Positions 5,298-15,075 of a DNA stretch of 64,000 bases are shown one piece after another (the first letter of the stretch is position 1; each line of letters opens with the position of its first letter). The DNA lies in NCBI GenBank assembly GCA_015056315.1, contig SVGN01000006.1, positions 1-64,000 on the forward strand, read 5' to 3'. Under the pieces are notes generated by a model. The model saw only the letters and a program-made list of their open reading frames with translations, did no database searches and was not told where the DNA came from. This DNA is from Clostridiales bacterium. GTDB taxonomy: Bacteria; Bacillota; Clostridia; Christensenellales; Aristaeellaceae. Made by a program: the position numbers and the translations under genes.

Positions 5298-5694
5298 GGC
5301 TGCCCGCAGGGCAGACTGAGGGTGCCGAGGGAGACCCTCAGCACAACGCAAAAGGGCTGCCGCAGAGAAACCGGGAACCGGCTCCCTCTTCAGAGGGAGC
5401 TGGCTGCCCGCAGGGCAGACTGAGGGTGCCGAAGGAGACCCTCAGCACAACGCAAAAGGGCTGCCGCAGAGAAACCGGGAACCGGCTCCCTCTTCAGAGG
5501 GAGCTGGCTGCCCGCAGGGCAGACTGAGGGTGCCGAAGGAGACCCCCAGCACAACGCAAAAGGGCTGCCGCGGAAAAAACCGGGGACCGGCTCCCTCTTC
5601 AGAGGGAGCTGGCTGCCCGCAGGGCAGACTGAGGGTGCCGAAGGAGACCCCCAGCACAACGCAAAAGGGCTGCCGCAGCCTGCGGCAGCCCTTT
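5298..5694. repeat. Tandem array of a 104-bp unit, about 3.8 copies
   Basis: Units begin with GGCTGCCCGCAGGGCAGAC at 5298, 5402, 5506 and 5611, giving periods of 104, 104 and 105 bp with few differences between copies. Each unit contains two inverted repeats (CTGCCCGCAGGGCAG, and GGCTCCCTCTTCAGAGGGAGC). The last unit ends in the hairpin 5664-5694. The short ORFs that run through the array change frame between units and look non-coding. Confidence 0.9.
5664..5694. terminator. Bidirectional terminator-like hairpin
   Basis: The perfect inverted repeat AAAGGGCTGCCGCA/TGCGGCAGCCCTTT lies between the tandem array and the convergent minus-strand gene ending at 5729. It is suited to stop transcription from either side. 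Confidence 0.65.
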
Positions 5695-5728
5695 CGGCTA
5701 TACACAGCCCCCGACAGGGAGCCTTTTG

Positions 5729-6592
5729 TTACCAGGGATAGAACAGCCAGCCTACGCCGTTGCAGTTCCAGCACTTACCGTTGCCCAGACAGCTGGGGCA
5801 ATAGATCAGGGCGCGCTGCAGAGCGCCGTACACAACACCGGTGCCATCGCAGGTGGTGCAGATGGTATTGGAATGGCACTGGCCGCAGATCATCGGGGTG
5901 GGGGTGGGAGTGGGGGTAGGCGTGGGAGTGGGCGTGGGGGTAGGGGTGGGAGTCGGAGTGGGGGTAGGCGTAGGGGTGGGGGTAGGCGTAGGAGTAGGCG
6001 TGGGGATGGGGGTAGGCGTTGCGATGGGGGTGGGAGTGGGGGTGATCTGGATCAGATTACCGTTCTCGTCGTACACGCCGAGGATCTCCACCTCGCTGCG
6101 GTTGGCGGCAACGAAGCCGATGGAGCCATCGTTCAGCTGGATGGCGTACCAGCCGTTATCGGGGCCTACATAGGTATACACATCGTTGGGGTTGGCAATG
6201 GCCAGCACACCGAACTCCTTGCTGGGGCCCTTGCGGATGTTCAGCGTGGCGGTGTGGGTGATGCGCACGATGCCCTCAGCCTTGGGGCCGTCGCTGTAAT
6301 CATCCTGCACGAAGCCCATTTCCACAACGGACTTGTTGCCGGATACATAGCCGATCTGGCCCTGAGTGTAGATGATGGCATTCCAGCCGTTTTCGGTGCC
6401 CACATAGGGGTAGATGTAATCGGGCTTGGCGGTGCCGATCTTGTTGTGATCGGTGCCGGGGCCGCTGCGCACATTGAGGGAGCCGGGGCTGGTGATGCGC
6501 ACCACATTGCCCTGCTTCAGCGCCATGCCCTGCAGCGGCAGCATGCAGATGAGCACCAGCAGGCAAACAACAGCAAGCAGTTTCCGTTTCAT
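5729..6592 (-). CDS. Secreted SH3b protein with Thr-Pro repeat linker and C-terminal zinc-ribbon cysteine cluster
   Basis: A 287-residue protein. Signal peptide: MKRKLL followed by a hydrophobic stretch ending near LQGMA. Two bacterial SH3 (SH3b) domains follow, about residues 27-90 and 105-170, each with the LNVRSGP/LNIRKGP-type core. A low-complexity linker of about 25 Pro-Thr dipeptides spans roughly residues 180-235. The C-terminus carries four CxxC pairs, three within CxxCxGxG motifs as in the DnaJ cysteine-rich domain, so it probably binds two zinc ions. SH3b domains commonly bind cell wall. The ATG at 6592 follows AAAGGAG; the ATG 18 bp upstream is too close to it. Function is not known. 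The repetitive codons make this a likely slippage hotspot. Confidence 0.8.
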
Positions 6593-8586: not shown

Positions 8587-8620
8587 AAAACTGGGACGGT
8601 TGATGCCGTCCCAGTTTTTG
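8587..8620 (+). terminator. Rho-independent terminator of the AlaX-like gene
   Basis: AACTGGGACGG/CCGTCCCAGTT stem followed by TTTTTG. It separates this gene from the leader-distal end of the CRISPR array. Confidence 0.85.
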
Positions 8621-8637
8621 TTTTGAAAGCTGAAAGT

Positions 8638-9119
8638 CTCTGCCTTTGCGGGGAGAGACCTTCAAGGCTTTCCCGCAAAGGTCGAGCCAGTTATTTCAAC
8701 CACCGCCTCGCGGGGAGAGACCTTGTGCAGAATGCCTATCAGGGCTTTGCGAAGCAATTTCAACCCACTCCCCCTCGCGGGGAGAGACCGACATACAGAC
8801 CATCGGTGCCGTTGTTGCCGATATTTCAACCCACTCCCCCTCGCGGGGAGAGACGAGCGGCACCGTTGGCGACCACGCAAGGATGGACATTTCAACCCAC
8901 TCCCCCTCGCGGGGAGAGACGCGGCGATGCTGTCGCCGGTGACGATCTCCTCGTAATTTCAACCCACTCCCCCTCGCGGGGAGAGACGCCAAAGCAATAC
9001 AACGTGCTCAAAGAAGCGACATTTCAACCCACTCCCCCTCGCGGGGAGAGACGGGTTGCTGCGGGAAGCACCCCAACTGTCATCCTCATTTCAACCCACT
9101 CCCCCTCGCGGGGAGAGAC
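8638..9119 (-). CRISPR. Type I-C CRISPR array, six perfect 32-bp repeats plus decayed distal repeats
   Basis: Perfect repeats lie at 8757-8788, 8823-8854, 8889-8920, 8956-8987, 9021-9052 and 9088-9119, with spacers of 33-35 bp. A decayed 29-bp repeat lies at 8693-8721 and a further remnant ends at 8659. On the minus strand the repeat begins GTCTCTCCCC and ends GTGGGTTGAAAT, the classic type I-C form with an 11-nt 5' handle. Transcription is therefore on the minus strand from a leader at 9120-9341. Decayed repeats at the low-coordinate side are the expected old, leader-distal end. cas genes lie upstream on the same strand. Confidence 0.97.
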
Positions 9120-9341
9120 AGCAATGCTAAACAAAAATCAGTTGTTGCACTCAACCAATTTCAACAACTTCACCTGTAAACGGAACATTCAAGTTCCAAT
9201 ACACCTGTTTCAATCAGCGATATTGCAACAAAACAGATGCTTTTTTCGGTGCGAACCTCCTGCGTTTTCCATGTTCGCTGAAGGTTCGCACCGCAAAGCA
9301 GCTTTGCCCATAATAAACGCTTCACCGGGGGCAAAGCGCCG
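9120..9341 (-). promoter_or_regulatory. CRISPR leader region
   Basis: This 222-bp non-coding stretch lies between the cas7 stop codon and the first repeat, on the side from which the array is read. It contains a 12-bp-stem hairpin (9247-9258 with 9282-9293) lacking a U-run, and a GTTGAAAT half-repeat near 9158-9165. I see no clear promoter hexamers, so the array may be read from the cas7 transcript, from a weak leader promoter, or from both. Confidence 0.6.
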
Positions 9342-10274
9342 TTACAGCATCCTCGTACAGGTAACGCCCTCCGGAAGCTGTTCTGCATCAACCGTTACAA
9401 CATAGTCATTGTAGCTGCGTGCAGGCTGCACGCCTTCCTTCCGTTCAACGCGCACTTTTTCAAACAGTTTCCACGCAGGTGCATTGCCCAATTCGCTATC
9501 GTGCTTGAAAACGATCAATTCCCGCACAGCCATTTTGCCGCGTGCAGCAGACCGGTCGTTTTCGAACATATTGATAATGGCATTCCACAAAAGAGCAAGA
9601 TCCTCTTCGGTAAAGCCGGTGGTTTTTCTGGCCAGATTCGCAGAAACGAACCCCTCTGCCCGATACAAGCCATAGGGAACGACGAATTTCCGCCCCATTT
9701 CCGTCTCCTTTTTGGCAGCATCGCTTTCGGTCGTGATCGCCACACGGGTGATCGTCACCTCTTGCGGCACAACAGGATCAACGCTGCGCGCAAAGCCGAG
9801 CTGCACAGGCCCACGCACCTGCCCGCAGTTCAAAGCTGCCTTTACAAAGGTCGTCATAACAGCACCAAAGGTACGTACATCGTAAAAATGCTTGCACATA
9901 TAATCCCGCAGTTTTTCATCGATGAGCGGGTCTTTGCTCCTCATTTTCGCCCCTGTCTTTTTAGCCTCCTCCTTGGAAGCACCGGCAAGGGAAGCAAGTT
10001 CTTCCTTCACATTCAGTTTCTCACCGGCTTCCACATCGCTTCGGTTCAGCGGTACACCCTCCTTGATATAGATGGCATACCCTTCTTCATCCTCTTTCAA
10101 GGTTTCTACGTAGTTGCGAATCTTACGTTTCAGGCATACATCCGTTACGATGCCACAGTTGGTCTCGGGGTCGATGCGGGGCATATTGCCTGCATCGGGA
10201 TCGCCGTTCGGGTTACCGTTTTCAACATCAAACAGGATAACGAAATCATAGCGGTTACGGATCACTTCAGACAT
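9342..10274 (-). CDS. cas7: Type I-C CRISPR-associated protein Cas7 (Csd2)
   Basis: A 310-residue backbone subunit of the I-C Cascade complex; multiple copies coat the crRNA spacer. The N-terminus has the Csd2 signature (FVILFDVENGNPNGDPDAGN), then GIVTDVCLKRKIRNYV, and GQVRGPVQLGFARS in the middle, all typical RAMP-fold elements. The ATG at 10274 follows AAGGAGGAG; longer readings run into cas8c. The start overlaps the 3' end of cas8c by 8 bp, consistent with translational coupling. No cas4, cas1 or cas2 follows: the CRISPR leader begins right after the stop codon. Confidence 0.96.
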   Translation of the reverse strand: MSEVIRNRYDFVILFDVENGNPNGDPDAGNMPRIDPETNCGIVTDVCLKRKIRNYVETLKEDEEGYAIYIKEGVPLNRSDVEAGEKLNVKEELASLAGASKEEAKKTGAKMRSKDPLIDEKLRDYMCKHFYDVRTFGAVMTTFVKAALNCGQVRGPVQLGFARSVDPVVPQEVTITRVAITTESDAAKKETEMGRKFVVPYGLYRAEGFVSANLARKTTGFTEEDLALLWNAIINMFENDRSAARGKMAVRELIVFKHDSELGNAPAWKLFEKVRVERKEGVQPARSYNDYVVTVDAEQLPEGVTCTRML

Positions 10275-10635
10275 TTTCTTTCTCCTCCTTTTTGGTAAAG
10301 CGACTCTGTGTTTGATGATAATAACCAAGTTGGAATACGCCCTGATCATGTAGCGACAGCCGCGACGGATAACTCTCGGTAATCTTCTCCATAACCTTTC
10401 TAATCTGCCGATCAAAGTATGCTTTATCTTTAGCAGGCAGTTTCTTCAAATGCGCCTGAGCCAATCGGATCAAGGTAGGAAAAACGATAGCCGGGGTTGC
10501 AGTGGCAGAACTGAAATACCGGTCTCTGATGGTGGCATTAATGCCTGGGTTAGCTTTTTCCTGCAAGTTTTCCAGTATCGAGAACAAACGTCCCAGCAGA
10601 TAGGGTTGGTAATTGGTCTCTTCATTCAGTTGCAC
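10267..10635 (-). CDS. cas11c: Cas11c small subunit from an internal start in cas8c
   Basis: Inside cas8c and in the same frame, AAGGAGG is followed after 8 bases by a GTG codon (10633-10635). This would yield a separate 122-residue protein covering the helical C-terminus of Cas8c (begins MQLNEETNYQP, ends KKEEKENV). Internally translated Cas11 of this size is established for type I-C systems, where two copies line the Cascade belly and stabilise the R-loop. The near-perfect ribosome binding site inside the coding sequence is direct support here. Confidence 0.85.
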   Translation of the reverse strand: MQLNEETNYQPYLLGRLFSILENLQEKANPGINATIRDRYFSSATATPAIVFPTLIRLAQAHLKKLPAKDKAYFDRQIRKVMEKITESYPSRLSLHDQGVFQLGYYHQTQSRFTKKEEKENV

Positions 10636-12012
10636 CGTCAAAACCTCCTTATGCAAAAAGCTCTTTTTTCGCCACAGATAAGCCTTGATAATGGCGGCTC
10701 TGCCCCGGCTGATCCTTCGTTCTGCCCGAATACGCAGCTGAACCTGGCTGAACAATGTAGCCGGGTACGGAACCGTTTCGCCTTGCAATATTGCCCGCAT
10801 CAGGTCTCCCGCCATCTGCGGATGCGGCTGCTTATCCCGTGAATTCTGGTTTACTGTCTCATTCAGCAACCACCATACGGACAATTCGTTCCAGTTGTCA
10901 TAAACCGGTTTTACGATGTTCAATGCCGCTTGATGCGCTTGGATGTTCCGCATCAATTCGCCAAAGGTATTACACAGGAAAAAGCGAACAGACAGACGGG
11001 CAGCATTGGGGGCAATCCCTAAAATATAGAACCGGTTGGAGGCCTCCAAAGGCAAGTTGTTCCAAACGACATTCTTGCCATCGGCAATAGCATTCAGCGT
11101 GTCGAGGAGTGTCCCCTCGTCCATAGCGTTGCTTCCCATCATATCGTACAAACACTCCGCGTACGCTTCCTGCCCGTCCTCTGCCCAAAACACGGCAGTG
11201 GTATCACCTATGCGAAGGTGGTGTTTTTCGCTGCTTATCAGGTAGTTGAGGGCAGCACCATATGCAAACGCAGCATAAGTGCTTACTGGAGCATTAAGCC
11301 CCTGCGATTCATCGCATCCATACGATTCTGCAGACGGTGCATTAAAGGACACAAGCGATGCGCCGGAAGACTGAGCACCCTGTATGCCTTTTATGCTGGG
11401 ATGGAGGATCTGCACAGGAGCCGTTTTTCCCGTTACCAAGCACTGCCGGTATACTGCGTTTTCCTCGTCTGAATATGCAGCCTGCCAGATACTTCTTATT
11501 TCGGGTATATCATGTACGAATACACCCTCGTACACAAACACCAGATTGCCACCTTTTACGATTTCATTAGCATGATCTCTTAACACAGGATGCTGCAATG
11601 CCATAACTGGCTCCCAGTTATCCAGAAACCTCAACAGCGCTGCGGCAGCGGGGTGGCTGCTTCCATCAAGCAATCTGTGTTGTTTATCTTTGAATGCCTC
11701 AAAGCACCGCAATGCACGTTCGGGTTTTTCCTTGGCATCTACGCCCAGTACATATGACGAATTATCACAAAGGAAATTGGCTTCAATACCAACCGTACGC
11801 TTGACCGGAGTCGGCACCTTCATTTCTCTGGCAACAGTTACCGTTTTCTTTTTTCTGACAATCTCCCGTTGCAATGGTAAGCAATAGAGCAGTTTTCCCG
11901 TCTCATCCAGTTCCAGCCCCCATGCCACCTTGGCAGACGACCAACCGGGCTGTTCTAAAACACCCTTGGCGGCAAGAGCTTCGTAAAGCTCTACCAACGC
12001 CTGAAGGATCAT
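10267..12012 (-). CDS. cas8c: Type I-C CRISPR-associated protein Cas8c (Csd1)
   Basis: A 581-residue large subunit of I-C Cascade that recognises the PAM and the crRNA 5' end. It starts MILQALVELYEAL, the usual Csd1 opening, and contains the CLVTGK segment near residue 190. The ATG at 12012 overlaps the cas5 stop (ATGA), with AGGTGG as ribosome binding site, so the two are coupled. The C-terminal 122 codons also hold an internal translation start for Cas11c. Length is normal for the family. Confidence 0.95.
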   Translation of the reverse strand: MILQALVELYEALAAKGVLEQPGWSSAKVAWGLELDETGKLLYCLPLQREIVRKKKTVTVAREMKVPTPVKRTVGIEANFLCDNSSYVLGVDAKEKPERALRCFEAFKDKQHRLLDGSSHPAAAALLRFLDNWEPVMALQHPVLRDHANEIVKGGNLVFVYEGVFVHDIPEIRSIWQAAYSDEENAVYRQCLVTGKTAPVQILHPSIKGIQGAQSSGASLVSFNAPSAESYGCDESQGLNAPVSTYAAFAYGAALNYLISSEKHHLRIGDTTAVFWAEDGQEAYAECLYDMMGSNAMDEGTLLDTLNAIADGKNVVWNNLPLEASNRFYILGIAPNAARLSVRFFLCNTFGELMRNIQAHQAALNIVKPVYDNWNELSVWWLLNETVNQNSRDKQPHPQMAGDLMRAILQGETVPYPATLFSQVQLRIRAERRISRGRAAIIKAYLWRKKSFLHKEVLTVQLNEETNYQPYLLGRLFSILENLQEKANPGINATIRDRYFSSATATPAIVFPTLIRLAQAHLKKLPAKDKAYFDRQIRKVMEKITESYPSRLSLHDQGVFQLGYYHQTQSRFTKKEEKENV

Positions 12013-12656
12013 CTTACCACCTCGCAATTCCGGCAATCGATCACGCCATTGACCATCTGCGCCCTATAGAACATTGGCACGATATTCTGTGGGTCGCTGT
12101 AATCCATGTCGTACAGGCACCACCCGAGATCGCGGGTCTCTTGTATGGTTGGGATCTCATCCTTCTCCCAAAGGGCAAAATGTGCCGTACATTCCCTGCA
12201 CCCCAAATACGGCTGGCTGTAGCATTGCCCCCGCCGCAAGCGGCGTTTGATAATATCCTGAAATTTACCCGGGTTATCGGATGGGGTCGCTTTATCCGTC
12301 ATCTCAAAGTGTGCTTCAATAACATAATGCACATCTCGCAGCATCAATGAGGCACGTTGCTGAATATCGTTCGCAGTAACAAGATAAAGGTTTTTGTTTG
12401 TGCCATTGGCTGCGCTTAGCACATTCATGCGCGAGACCTTAGACTTCACCTCATTGCGGCGTAAATTCGCATAACGAATGGGCGACAGTACATAGATACG
12501 ATCTATGTACCATCTCAATCCCGGGTGAAAATATACTGCTTCTACTATTCCCCGTGCTGCGCTGGGGGTTATCGTATCGTAGCTGACCCTCTCAATCTTC
12601 ATCTCCGGTCTGCTAAAACACGCCTCTTCTCCCCAGACTTCCATCCTGATCGACAA
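12009..12656 (-). CDS. cas5c: Type I-C CRISPR-associated protein Cas5c (crRNA endonuclease)
   Basis: A protein of about 215 residues. In type I-C, Cas5 replaces Cas6: it cuts the repeat 3' of its stem and stays bound to the 11-nt 5' handle. The signature VWGEEACFSRPEMK.ERVSYDTITPSAARGI is at the N-terminus. I prefer a TTG start at 12656, because GGAGG (12665-12669) lies 8 bases before it and the protein then matches family length; an ATG at 12671 overlaps that ribosome binding site. It has its own promoter 110 bp upstream and is the first gene of cas5-cas8c-cas7. Confidence 0.93.
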   Translation of the reverse strand: MSIRMEVWGEEACFSRPEMKIERVSYDTITPSAARGIVEAVYFHPGLRWYIDRIYVLSPIRYANLRRNEVKSKVSRMNVLSAANGTNKNLYLVTANDIQQRASLMLRDVHYVIEAHFEMTDKATPSDNPGKFQDIIKRRLRRGQCYSQPYLGCRECTAHFALWEKDEIPTIQETRDLGWCLYDMDYSDPQNIVPMFYRAQMVNGVIDCRNCEVVR

Positions 12657-12743
12657 CCATTTCACCTCCATTAGTTTGTTGCGTTTTCCGATACCGTTTC
12701 GTGCCATTCGGTATTGTTTGAACCATATACATTGAGCAAGACA

Positions 12744-12772
12744 ACCATATCACATGCTCTTCGTAAATTCAA
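12744..12772 (-). promoter_or_regulatory. Predicted promoter of the cas5-cas8c-cas7 operon
   Basis: Minus-strand TTGAAT (12767-12772) and TATGGT (12744-12749) are spaced by 17 bp, with an A-tract just upstream of the -35 (around 12774-12781), as in an UP element. Transcription would begin near 12737, about 80 bp before the cas5 start. Confidence 0.55.
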
Positions 12773-12779
12773 TATTTTT

Positions 12780-12816
12780 TTCAGTAAAATTGTATGTTGA
12801 TTGACTTTGTCTTGCT
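12780..12816. promoter_or_regulatory. Predicted Cascade target (TTC PAM plus partial protospacer) beside the cas5 promoter
   Basis: TTC at 12780-12782, the standard I-C PAM, is followed by AGTAAAATTGTATGTTG (12783-12799). This matches 14 of the first 17 bases of the spacer-like part of the RNA at 12836-12920. Two of the three mismatches fall at positions 6 and 12, which are flipped out in type I crRNA-DNA hybrids. The PAM lies 8 bp upstream of the cas5 -35 and the R-loop would cover the RNA gene's own -35. Confidence 0.65.
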
Positions 12817-12829
12817 GATATGGTACTAT
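12801..12829 (+). promoter_or_regulatory. Promoter of the CreR-like RNA
   Basis: TTGACT (12801-12806) and TACTAT (12824-12829) are spaced by exactly 17 bp. The expected start, 7 bp after the -10, is the first G of the repeat-like element at 12836. Confidence 0.8.
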
Positions 12830-12835
12830 TTTTTT

Positions 12836-12920
12836 GTCTGGCGCACGCCAGTTGGTTGAAACAGTAACTTTGTTTGTTGCAACACGCGGAGAATGTATGG
12901 CATTCTCCGCGTATTGCTTT
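12836..12920 (+). ncRNA. CreR-like crRNA-type regulatory RNA (single repeat, short spacer, terminator)
   Basis: Positions 12836-12862 form a diverged CRISPR repeat: it begins GTC like the array repeat, has a short stem-loop (CTGGC/GCCAG), and ends TTGGTTGAAAC, differing from the array handle TGGGTTGAAAT at two of 11 bases. A spacer-like part starts at 12863. A terminator follows: a perfect 12-bp stem (12884-12895 with 12901-12912) and the U-rich TATTGCTTTTT. It lies between cas3 and cas5 on the opposite strand. By analogy with CreR RNAs it should load on Cas5/Cascade and direct binding without cleavage to the partially matching site at 12780-12816, repressing the cas operon. That function is inferred; the promoter, repeat, terminator and PAM-flanked match are seen. 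Confidence 0.75.
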
Positions 12921-12924
12921 TTCA

Positions 12925-15075
12925 TTACGGAAACCACTTCATCTCCGTTGCCGGTTCCAACAGCAGCCCGCATTCCTTGTCATACCGATCTGCAACCTGC
13001 AAAATTCCAAAATGCTCATCCTTGGGGCAGTACATATATTCACGCAGTAACTCGAAATGCTTGGCATAAACATTGACCACATCTCTACCAAGTTTTCGCA
13101 AATCTTTGCGAGATATCGTCCGGTCGCGAAGTGCTTGGAGCAATAGTGCGTTTCTTTCGTTGGGTATATATACAGGTATCGTTTCATCGTCAATCATACG
13201 GAAACTCTCCTTAACATCTTTGAAAGCAAGCCTTGTACTCTTTTCAACAATCCCGTTCGTATCCAAGGCATCCTCCCCGACCATAAACAGCAATTGCCTG
13301 AAATAATACGCGATTGCCTCCGGAGTAGCAATGTCTTCGAACTTATCCAGCACCTTATTCAGCGCAATAATATTCTGAGCAAACATCACCGGCGGTCTTT
13401 CACCAAAACGAAAAACATGCACAAGGCTTTCTTCCAACGGGCGTTTTCCCTCCCTGTTACAGCGACCGGCTGCCTGTAGTACAGAATCCAACCCAGCCTC
13501 CTCGCGCCATACAGAAGGAAAGTCCAAATCCACGCCCGCCTCTATCAGGCTTGTAGATATTACCCTGCACACCGATCCGTTCTTCAGCCGTTCCTTAATC
13601 TTCTCAACCGTTCTACTCCTATGTTCCGGTGTCATATGCGTAGAAAGATGGAAACATCCTTCCCGCTCAAGCATCCAGTACAGTTTGTTTGCTGCTCTGC
13701 GGGAATTAACAATGCACAGCACCTGTTGGGAACGATGCAGATTTTCGATTAACATCTCTTCGCTTAATACACCTTCACAGCAAAACTGCGTACGCCGGAA
13801 AAACGCATATAGTTCACCTGTGTTTTCCGTAATCTCCTTGCAGCTCAGTTCGGGTGCATAATTGGCGATCAAACCATCAAGGGCTGGCTGTGTGGCAGTA
13901 CACAATATTGATGTTGAACCATAATGCTCCACCAATTCGGCAATCATATTCACACAAGGCCTCAGGTATGGTACAGGCAGCATTTGCGCTTCGTCGAAAA
14001 CAATGACCGAATTTGTCACATTATGCAATTTACGACAGCGGGAAGTCTGATTGGAATACATCGATTCAAAGAACTGGACAGCCGTAGTTACAACAATAGG
14101 TGCATCCCAGTTTTCCGTCGCCAGTCTCATCGACTTGCCATCGGCATCATCAAAATCATGGTTGGAATGGTGCTCCAACACCGATTCTTCTCCCACGATC
14201 TCCCGAAAGCGCTGTGCATTCTGCTCAATAATGCTTGTATAGGGTACTACATAAATAATTCGGGACATACCATGCCTAATCGCATGAGACAACGCAAACG
14301 CCAACGAAGATACGGTTTTCCCTCCGCCGGTTGGGATCGTCATCGTATACAGCCCCTTAGGCATTTCATCGCCTTTCAGGCATCTTTGCAGAAGCTCGTT
14401 TCTTTTTTGATTCAAAGCAGACGATGCAGCACAATGCCATGGCTGAACATATTGTTGCAGCCGTTCCATTAAGACAGGAAGCGGAAACGAGGCCGCTCGT
14501 TCTGTTTTCCCACCAGCCATAAAGGCTTCTGTATCCAAATAATCCGCATCTACCAAACAAGAAAACAGCATTCTTATGTAGACAGACAGTGAATACATAA
14601 TTCTGTCCTTCGGGAGTGAACGCAACCATGATGGCATTTGTATCTGTTGTGGTGGAAAAACCTCCGTTGTCCATGCTGAGGGGTCAAGTTGACCATCCAG
14701 CTTTTTTTGGAGACGTCCCATCAGAGTGCCCTCTTCGCAGGCTCTGCTACCGCAGTTCAGCAAACCGCCATGGTGGCCGGCAATAGCAGCTGCTGCACCG
14801 GGATCGCGATAACGCTTATGCGCAACCTGTGCACCCGCTGTTGCGTGATCAACCGGAGAAGTGTGTTCCGGATCCTTCTGCCGTTGTTGGGCTGCCTGGC
14901 TGTATTTTCCCACATCATGTAGCAGCCCGGTGCAGTAAGCATGTTCGCCAGCCCCAAAAGGTGCAGCGAACTCTTCTGCCAGTTTTGCCACCCCCAGCAA
15001 ATGATCCAATAGCTTTTGATATTCACCATTTTCTCTTTTATGAGTTACATATGGCGTAAGAACACCTCCAATCAA
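12925..15075 (-). CDS. cas3: CRISPR-associated helicase-nuclease Cas3 (HD domain fused to SF2 helicase)
   Basis: A 716-residue protein that degrades DNA recruited by Cascade. The N-terminal HD nuclease has HD at residues 53-54 (LLHDVGKY), DH at 76-77 and HH at 101-102. The helicase has Walker A PTGGGKT (248-254), DEAQ (361-364), SLIEAGVDLDFP and QAAGRCNREG (motif VI). The start is a TTG at 15075, supported by AGAAGGA 7 bp upstream; no ATG fits. It has its own promoter, and its stop is followed by the terminator hairpin of the opposite-strand CreR-like RNA, so cas3 and the Cascade genes may be expressed separately. Confidence 0.95.
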   Translation of the reverse strand: MIGGVLTPYVTHKRENGEYQKLLDHLLGVAKLAEEFAAPFGAGEHAYCTGLLHDVGKYSQAAQQRQKDPEHTSPVDHATAGAQVAHKRYRDPGAAAAIAGHHGGLLNCGSRACEEGTLMGRLQKKLDGQLDPSAWTTEVFPPQQIQMPSWLRSLPKDRIMYSLSVYIRMLFSCLVDADYLDTEAFMAGGKTERAASFPLPVLMERLQQYVQPWHCAASSALNQKRNELLQRCLKGDEMPKGLYTMTIPTGGGKTVSSLAFALSHAIRHGMSRIIYVVPYTSIIEQNAQRFREIVGEESVLEHHSNHDFDDADGKSMRLATENWDAPIVVTTAVQFFESMYSNQTSRCRKLHNVTNSVIVFDEAQMLPVPYLRPCVNMIAELVEHYGSTSILCTATQPALDGLIANYAPELSCKEITENTGELYAFFRRTQFCCEGVLSEEMLIENLHRSQQVLCIVNSRRAANKLYWMLEREGCFHLSTHMTPEHRSRTVEKIKERLKNGSVCRVISTSLIEAGVDLDFPSVWREEAGLDSVLQAAGRCNREGKRPLEESLVHVFRFGERPPVMFAQNIIALNKVLDKFEDIATPEAIAYYFRQLLFMVGEDALDTNGIVEKSTRLAFKDVKESFRMIDDETIPVYIPNERNALLLQALRDRTISRKDLRKLGRDVVNVYAKHFELLREYMYCPKDEHFGILQVADRYDKECGLLLEPATEMKWFP

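Follow-up and report, generated by a model that had tools for sequence, protein, structure and literature searches.

Stand-alone CRISPR repeats within cas loci, mostly of type I, have reportedly been described by Shmakov et al. (NAR, 2023), with guides partly complementary to cas promoters; these elements are said to be often two-repeat mini-arrays and to concern cas8 promoters. The genes of the CreR RNAs are likewise said to be mini-CRISPRs, and tests in I-B, I-E and V-A systems have reportedly been made by Liu et al. (Cell Host Microbe, 2023). In the excerpts of PMC12737573, CreR RNAs are presented as resembling crRNAs and as regulating the cas operon to which they belong, in systems of type I and type V-A; competing crRNAs or anti-CRISPRs relieve the repression. 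For the type I-B CreA RNAs, the excerpts of PMC8501985 state that repression through Cascade needs pairing at guide positions 1-5 and 7-11, with the TTC PAM and the free positions 6 and 12 shown for H. hubeiense, and that CreA of Haloarcula hispanica (CreTA, type I-B) has one degenerate repeat and a guide ending in a transcription terminator. The Racr RNAs, including RacrIC1, are described in the excerpts of PMC10651486 as solitary-repeat RNA anti-CRISPRs of phages and proviruses that mimic the repeat.

The element reported here lies between type I-C cas3 and cas5c on the + strand of the window (the whole 64,000-nt stretch of DNA that was analysed; features in Table 1). As judged from its sequence and from that of its relatives, it is very probably a CreR-type guide, with one repeat and a terminator cap, that would direct I-C Cascade to repress cas5-cas8-cas7. 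In common with CreR it would be a crRNA-like RNA of a cas locus with a match to the cognate cas promoter, where Cascade would act as the repressor, and it has a degenerate repeat outside the array in the cognate cas locus and PAM-flanked partial complementarity to a predicted cas promoter. It differs from CreR in belonging to type I-C, in having one repeat and an intrinsic terminator, and in matching to about 17 nt; to judge from the I-C gene set, processing would also be by Cas5c rather than Cas6. The stand-alone repeat and the promoter-matching guide are shared with the crRNA-like elements reported by Shmakov et al., while the single repeat and the cas5 promoter are differences. H. hispanica CreA, in the excerpts of PMC8501985, resembles the element in its single degenerate repeat, its terminator-ended spacer-like guide and the seed at 1-5 plus 7-11, but a toxin RNA promoter is targeted there, whereas here it is the promoter before cas5, with matching to about position 17. 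RacrIC1, as excerpted in PMC10651486, is also a single I-C repeat-like RNA outside an array, but the window element sits in a host cas locus and has a target; moreover, an exact search of viral contigs with the guide and handle of two of the relatives described below (L007/L008) found nothing, and this particular guide thus gives no sign of having a phage copy. Among the literature matches listed, no CreR-type guide in type I-C was met in the excerpts of PMC12737573, PMC13131331, PMC10651486, PMC9458426 and PMC8501985. We regard the element as a variant of CreR and do not claim priority for type I-C.

Table 1. Features of the guide RNA gene and of the surrounding type I-C cas locus in the window.
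Feature	Position	Strand	Description
Predicted guide RNA gene promoter	12801-12829	+	TTGACT 12801-12806, 17 bp, TACTAT 12824-12829, TG before the -10; predicted start 12836
Degenerate type I-C CRISPR repeat (psi-repeat) GTCTGGCGCACGCCAGTTGGTTGAAAC	12836-12862	+	Sequence and fold
Psi-repeat stem CTGGC/GCCAG	12838-12842 / 12847-12851	+	5 bp; sequence and fold
Psi-repeat handle TTGGTTGAAAC	12852-12862	+	11 nt, directly after the 5-bp stem
Spacer-like guide	12863-12883	+	Nucleotides 1-17, AGTAACTTTGTTTGTTG, match the target next to the predicted cas5 promoter
Intrinsic terminator	12884-12922	+	13-pair hairpin 12884-12912 and T-rich tail
Target	12780-12816	+	PAM TTC 12780-12782; matched part AGTAAAATTGTATGTTG 12783-12799; assumed 34-bp protospacer ends at 12816
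Predicted cas5 promoter	12744-12772	-	-35 TTGAAT 12767-12772, 17 bp, extended -10 TATGGT 12744-12749; 7 bp from the PAM
cas5c	12009-12656	-	TIGR01876, 168.4 bits; start probably TTG 12656 (the ORF extends to 12707); heads the operon presumed to be repressed
cas8c/csd1	10267-12036	-	TIGR01863, 469.8 bits
cas7c/csd2	9342-10415	-	TIGR02589, 354.5 bits
cas3, upstream neighbour	12925-15075	-	Above cut-off for TIGR01587 and TIGR01596; stop codon begins 2 bases past the guide terminator tail
Canonical I-C array	8640-9119	-	Repeat GTCTCTCCCCGCGAGGGGGAGTGGGTTGAAAT; last repeats degenerate

The locus carries Cas5c, Cas8c, Cas7c and Cas3 together with a repeat ending in an 11-nt handle, as in type I-C, and belongs to a 3.09-Mb draft assembly that is 80% complete. 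The nearest Cas5c relative among the matches listed is 94% identical and comes from a Clostridia MAG from sheep rectum (L008/L037). Many homologues of Cas5c align only from about residue 18, and the true start is therefore probably TTG 12656, which stands behind GGAGGTG, and not ATG 12707. The predicted cas5 promoter has 8 of 12 consensus bases and an extended -10, and is weak by consensus.

Directly readable in the gap are a promoter-like site, a degenerate repeat with an 11-nt handle, a guide of about 20 nt, a terminator and, next to the predicted cas5 promoter, a partial match flanked by a PAM. From 12801, on the strand opposite to the cas genes, the order is TTGACT, 17 bp, TACTAT, six T, GTCTGGCGCACGCCAGTTGGTTGAAAC, AGTAACTTTGTTTGTTGCAAC and the hairpin. 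The psi-repeat and the array repeat of the same locus follow the same plan, the array handle being TGGGTTGAAAT. The RNA from 12836 to 12922 folds at -37.2 kcal/mol (z -4.99) and beats 200 of 200 shuffles, and one terminator-like hairpin was counted in the stretch against a mean of 0.2 in shuffles; the promoter scan found one site against a mean of 1.1, which is chance level. At gathering thresholds Rfam gave no match at the guide RNA site. The initial annotation had placed TTGACT, a 17-bp spacing and TACTAT so that the predicted start is the first base of the repeat (12836), had read a diverged repeat at 12836-12862 and had let a spacer-like stretch begin at 12863, and the coordinates and the sequence agree with this; its terminator stands as well, with 13 pairs in the hairpin as counted here instead of a 12-bp stem.

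Guide nucleotides 1-17 are identical to 12783-12799 at 14 of 17 positions, with mismatches at 6, 7 and 12. None of 20,000 dinucleotide shuffles of the gap reached 14/17, and 8 of 20,000 shuffled guides did so. The window contains 2,259 TTC sites, of which the next best after the target scores 11. When the guide-target pattern was searched in the 3.09-Mb assembly with at most two mismatches, it occurred only at the target if TTC was included and at the guide itself if TTC was left out, while a reversed control pattern gave 1 match. The end assumed for the protospacer follows from 34 bp, the usual spacer length of type I-C. The claim of the initial annotation that a 14/17 match directly follows TTC is thus borne out, none of the 20,000 shuffled gaps equalling it, and so is its placing of two of the three mismatches at 6 and 12; the third, which it had left unnamed, is at 7 and lies in the seed. 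It had also put the site 8 bp upstream of the predicted cas5 -35, and the two are indeed adjacent, although the edge of the PAM is 7 bp away.

Cas5c searches yielded at least 162 loci with a cas5 match, with no more than 30 loci taken from any one genome search and, in one case, the 80 best of 121, and 151 were left once 11 duplicates had been removed; the most distant of the sampled loci (about 30% identity) may not be I-C. Up to 1 kb upstream of cas5 was scanned for a repeat handle and a guide with a PAM-flanked match, using a broadened handle pattern and admitting PAMs other than TTC. This gave 42 rows with 12/17 matches if the PAM was TTC or 14/17 otherwise, plus at least 8/10 seed matches. 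We dropped two rows of L094 (36-bp tandem duplication, PAM AAT), L032, L072 and L157 (non-TTC PAM, judged to be chance), L049 (array repeats), and the second rows of L067 and L046. Among the loci listed, a psi-repeat with a matched guide was found in 34 of the 151 distinct loci with a Cas5c relative, with TTC as the PAM in 32 and TTT in 2. Two loci outside the 34 resemble the module by eye: L035, which has a TTT PAM and a gap of about 241 bp, and L061, whose gap is about 377 bp. The tandem duplication upstream of cas5 in L094 lies near cas5 and carries the ribosome-binding-like AGAAAGGAG.

The initial annotation was to be refuted if relatives with this gap between cas3 and cas5 lacked the handle and the PAM-flanked match. 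Both are kept in 28 of the 48 loci in which the gap is estimated at 170-320 bp, which does not refute the proposal; the other 20 have no guide by the survey criteria. The module was found in 4 of 11 loci with a gap of 320-2000 bp, in 2 of 14 without a cas3 match, and in none of the 78 with a gap below 170 bp, a zero that is partly trivial because the module needs room. Overall matching in the survey rows is selected for, since the criteria demand it, and the fair figure is therefore given by the guide-swap control. At 14/17 or better, a TTC match in the own region was found for 25 of 56 handle-adjacent 17-mers, as against 6 of 2,576 guides swapped between loci, and at 12/17 or better the corresponding figures are 28 of 56 and 39 of 2,576. 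Named isolates with the same module are Eubacterium barkeri, E. aggregans, Fusicatenibacter saccharivorans and Clostridium transplantifaecale. Fifteen of the guide rows on the Cas5c tree have named records, which are from Clostridia in 13 cases and from Negativicutes and Rhodobacterales in one case each. One arrangement outside Clostridia is different: in L115, a Rhodobacteraceae MAG, the guide is on the cas5 strand and the target on the other strand, matching at 14/17 with TTC.

The strongest evidence comes from the positions of the mismatches, at which, unlike overall matching, a count of zero is not imposed by the survey. They were counted in 33 non-redundant pairs, L065 being left out as its guide and target equal those of L062. 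Positions 1-5 and 8-11 have no mismatch in any pair, position 6 has 16, position 7 has 4 and position 12 has 26; positions 13-15 have 1, 1 and 3, positions 16-17 have 9 and 12, and positions 18-22 have 21-29, where about 25 is random. Type I Cascade pairs its guide in groups of five, every sixth base being flipped out, and the pattern is what such pairing would give if it ended at about 17 nt. The initial annotation had seen the flipped-out positions 6 and 12 mismatched in the window, and the relatives concentrate their mismatches there too (16 and 26 of 33). The window pair is among the weaker ones, and its mismatch at position 7, which 4 of the 33 pairs have, the window included, falls in the part needed in the I-B test.

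It could be argued that the element is the relic of an old array, a decayed solo repeat-spacer, transcribed or not, with a fortuitous promoter match. The repeat is degenerate, and on the Cas5c tree, built with FastTree from 148 of the 151 loci, presence is patchy: the 33 guide rows need 26 changes (raw count). However, the partial match between guide and target is maintained by covariation across relatives, the two staying matched while the sequences turn over, and the mismatches gather at the flipped-out positions; between the close relatives L007 and L008, and likewise between L013 and L014, guide and target have changed together at position 10. The PAM, the terminator and the promoter geometry are conserved too. 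We therefore find a relic extremely improbable, and conclude that the guide module is real, recurrent and, by the comparative evidence, functional.

The build of the guide gene is similar across the 34 loci. In 25 of them the start given by the best promoter lies 23-32 nt ahead of the guide, and in 17 it lies 23-26 nt ahead; these are raw counts of best consensus sites from a scan that admitted only starts about 17-58 nt before the guide. A stem of at least 4 bp precedes a handle of 10-12 nt in 30 of 34 loci, as against 34% of shuffles, and the handle is 11 nt in 23. A strong hairpin with a T-tail follows the guide in 25 of the 32 loci that are long enough, as against 0.6% of 1,280 shuffles; this strict test replaces a lenient one that had a null of 34%. 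A second repeat, searched as TTGAAA up to 110 nt from the guide start (over 22 nt in L054 and 85 nt in L115), is not found in 32 of the 34 loci; in the other two, L062 and L065, TTGAAA lies inside the guide, at 16. The two-repeat mini-CRISPR layout is thus not seen, and one repeat with a terminator is the common form here, although the loci that lack a strong terminator hairpin may have a second repeat that lost its handle. The array was read in 13 of 19 loci tried, and in 12 of these 13 the variable base of the handle is the same in the psi-repeat as in the array (the exception is L030; kinship is ignored in this count), while the stems of psi-repeats and arrays have diverged. The agreement in the handle fits with a guide that is kept compatible with the local Cas5c. 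The initial annotation had regarded a one-repeat, terminator-ended guide as unusual, which is partly right: the excerpts of PMC8501985 give the same layout for H. hispanica CreA, and it is common among the present loci.

In 32 of the 34 loci the target reads opposite to the cas5 strand, and 29 of the 34 fall into two classes by the place of the target with respect to the predicted cas5 promoter. From best-scoring consensus sites, and as raw counts, 15 of the 32 loci have the best -35 on the cas5 side beginning 0-9 bp from the PAM (7 bp in the window), and 14 of the 32, L115 among them, have it at -46 to -70 from the PAM; L127, L144 and L154 differ from both classes. Cascade would abut the cas5 -35 in the first class and would lie over the start point in the second. 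Without L115, the predicted leaders to cas5 in 28 loci are 16-131 nt long.

These leaders bear on a CreA-like alternative, in which the guide would be an antitoxin that keeps creT repressed, a small toxin RNA encoded between target promoter and cas5, the module then being an addiction device and not mainly a cas regulator. According to the excerpts of PMC9458426 and PMC8501985, CreA guides have one or two degenerate repeats and obey the same seed rule. The predicted leader before cas5 in the window, about 80 nt, may contain a small toxin RNA, and 11 of the 28 loci, with 66-131 nt, have room for a tiny RNA as well; in the other 17, however, only 16-53 nt separate the start from cas5, which leaves little room for a separate gene, and cas5 is the first gene downstream. 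Since 17 of the 28 predicted leaders are at most 53 nt long, cas5 is likely the controlled gene, and we consider an antitoxin improbable as the main function.

It is also conceivable that the guide is real but serves mainly to limit itself, to compete for Cascade (as a decoy shrinking the pool for crRNAs) or to roadblock read-through from cas3, with the repression of cas5 as a side effect. The window protospacer covers the guide's own -35, at protospacer positions 19-24, as the initial annotation had stated, and solitary repeat-like RNA can inhibit a I-C system, as described for RacrIC1 in the excerpts of PMC10651486. A decoy would work without any match to a target, but here such a match is conserved. 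As for self-limitation, the coverage seen in the window is no rule: the guide's own -35 starts at protospacer 12-29 in L008, L009, L013, L014, L016, L027 and L076, at 31-37 in L012, L055, L068, L125 and L154, and at 41-148 in 14 other loci, where it is outside the 34-bp site while the target still lies beside the cas5 promoter in 13 of the 14. Because these positions vary between loci, self-repression is possible in the window's group and not a general rule; for the guide itself it is plausible, as far as the promoter positions suggest. We find it highly improbable that any of these is the main role.

The reading that we prefer remains repression of the cas5 operon by a Cascade-bound guide, and the proposal of the initial annotation that the guide RNA lets Cascade tune its own operon is largely supported by the conservation, the mismatch positions and the promoter geometry. 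The RNA would start at 12836 and be cut by Cas5c after the short stem, which would leave the 11-nt handle, and the terminator hairpin would cap the 3' end instead of a second repeat. Cas5c, Cas8c and Cas7c would assemble on it and bind 12780-12816, where pairing over about 17 nt (1-5, 7-11, 13-17) would hold Cascade on the DNA without a full R-loop, and it is proposed that Cas3 therefore does not cut. The PAM-side end of the complex would block the cas5 -35 and so repress cas5-cas8-cas7, while cas3, being upstream, would escape direct control; read-through from cas3 could feed cas5 past a block at initiation. The same complex may also lower the guide, because its far side covers the guide's own -35. 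By analogy with the described systems, we infer that such a shared operator of two divergent promoters would keep free Cascade constant, repression being released when crRNAs or anti-CRISPR proteins take Cascade.

It is tempting to go further and to propose for type I-C systems of Clostridia and relatives a recurrent family of rapidly re-targeted, one-repeat, terminator-capped guides, each of which would keep Cascade on a three-segment R-loop (5+5+3 to 5 bp) whose distance from the cas5 promoter takes one of two fixed values; within the window's group a single Cascade would then seal both divergent promoters and act as a homeostat for effector and guide, with cas3 uncoupled. For this wider model we would put the chances at about even. 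Should guide-directed repression of cas5 be borne out, self-regulation of Cascade by an internal guide would extend to type I-C, with Cas5c and no Cas6. The 33 natural guide-target pairs would then show which crRNA positions count when Cascade binds and does not cleave, namely 1-5, 7-11 and 13-15 to 17, positions 6 and 12 being free. With simple reporters, the two promoter geometries and the self-covering operator of the window would also allow one to ask how a cell adjusts its Cascade level, the named isolates being possible models.

Some further observations concern the cas locus. Cas1 (PF01867) was not found in the window assembly (G000, 80% complete) nor in the congener G101 (95% complete); it is present in 5 of 8 guide-bearing relatives searched, and G257 and G172 are also without it. 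In G000, where no adaptation genes were seen at 8640-15075 of the window, and in G101 the effector, presumed to be guide-regulated, is thus apparently without spacer acquisition. The end of the array (8620-8720) has degenerate repeats, the final one being a hairpin GTCTCT...AGAGAC, and behind it stands a distinct palindrome with a run of T. The words TGTCTTGCT and GATATGGT are common to both divergent promoters (12735-12751 on the - strand and 12808-12824 on the + strand, in swapped order); the pair is possibly the operator of a second regulator, and is not seen in the relative L008.

Elsewhere in the window, a 104-bp unit is repeated in tandem at 5298-5714 next to an aspartate aminotransferase gene; of its four copies, the second, third and fourth have 99, 76 and 67% identity to the first. 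A G-rich repeat based on 6 bp lies at 5895-6044 within a - strand reading frame with SH3-domain matches, and at 2501-2736 on the - strand there is a T-box leader with 94.5 bits, just above the Rfam gathering score of 93.
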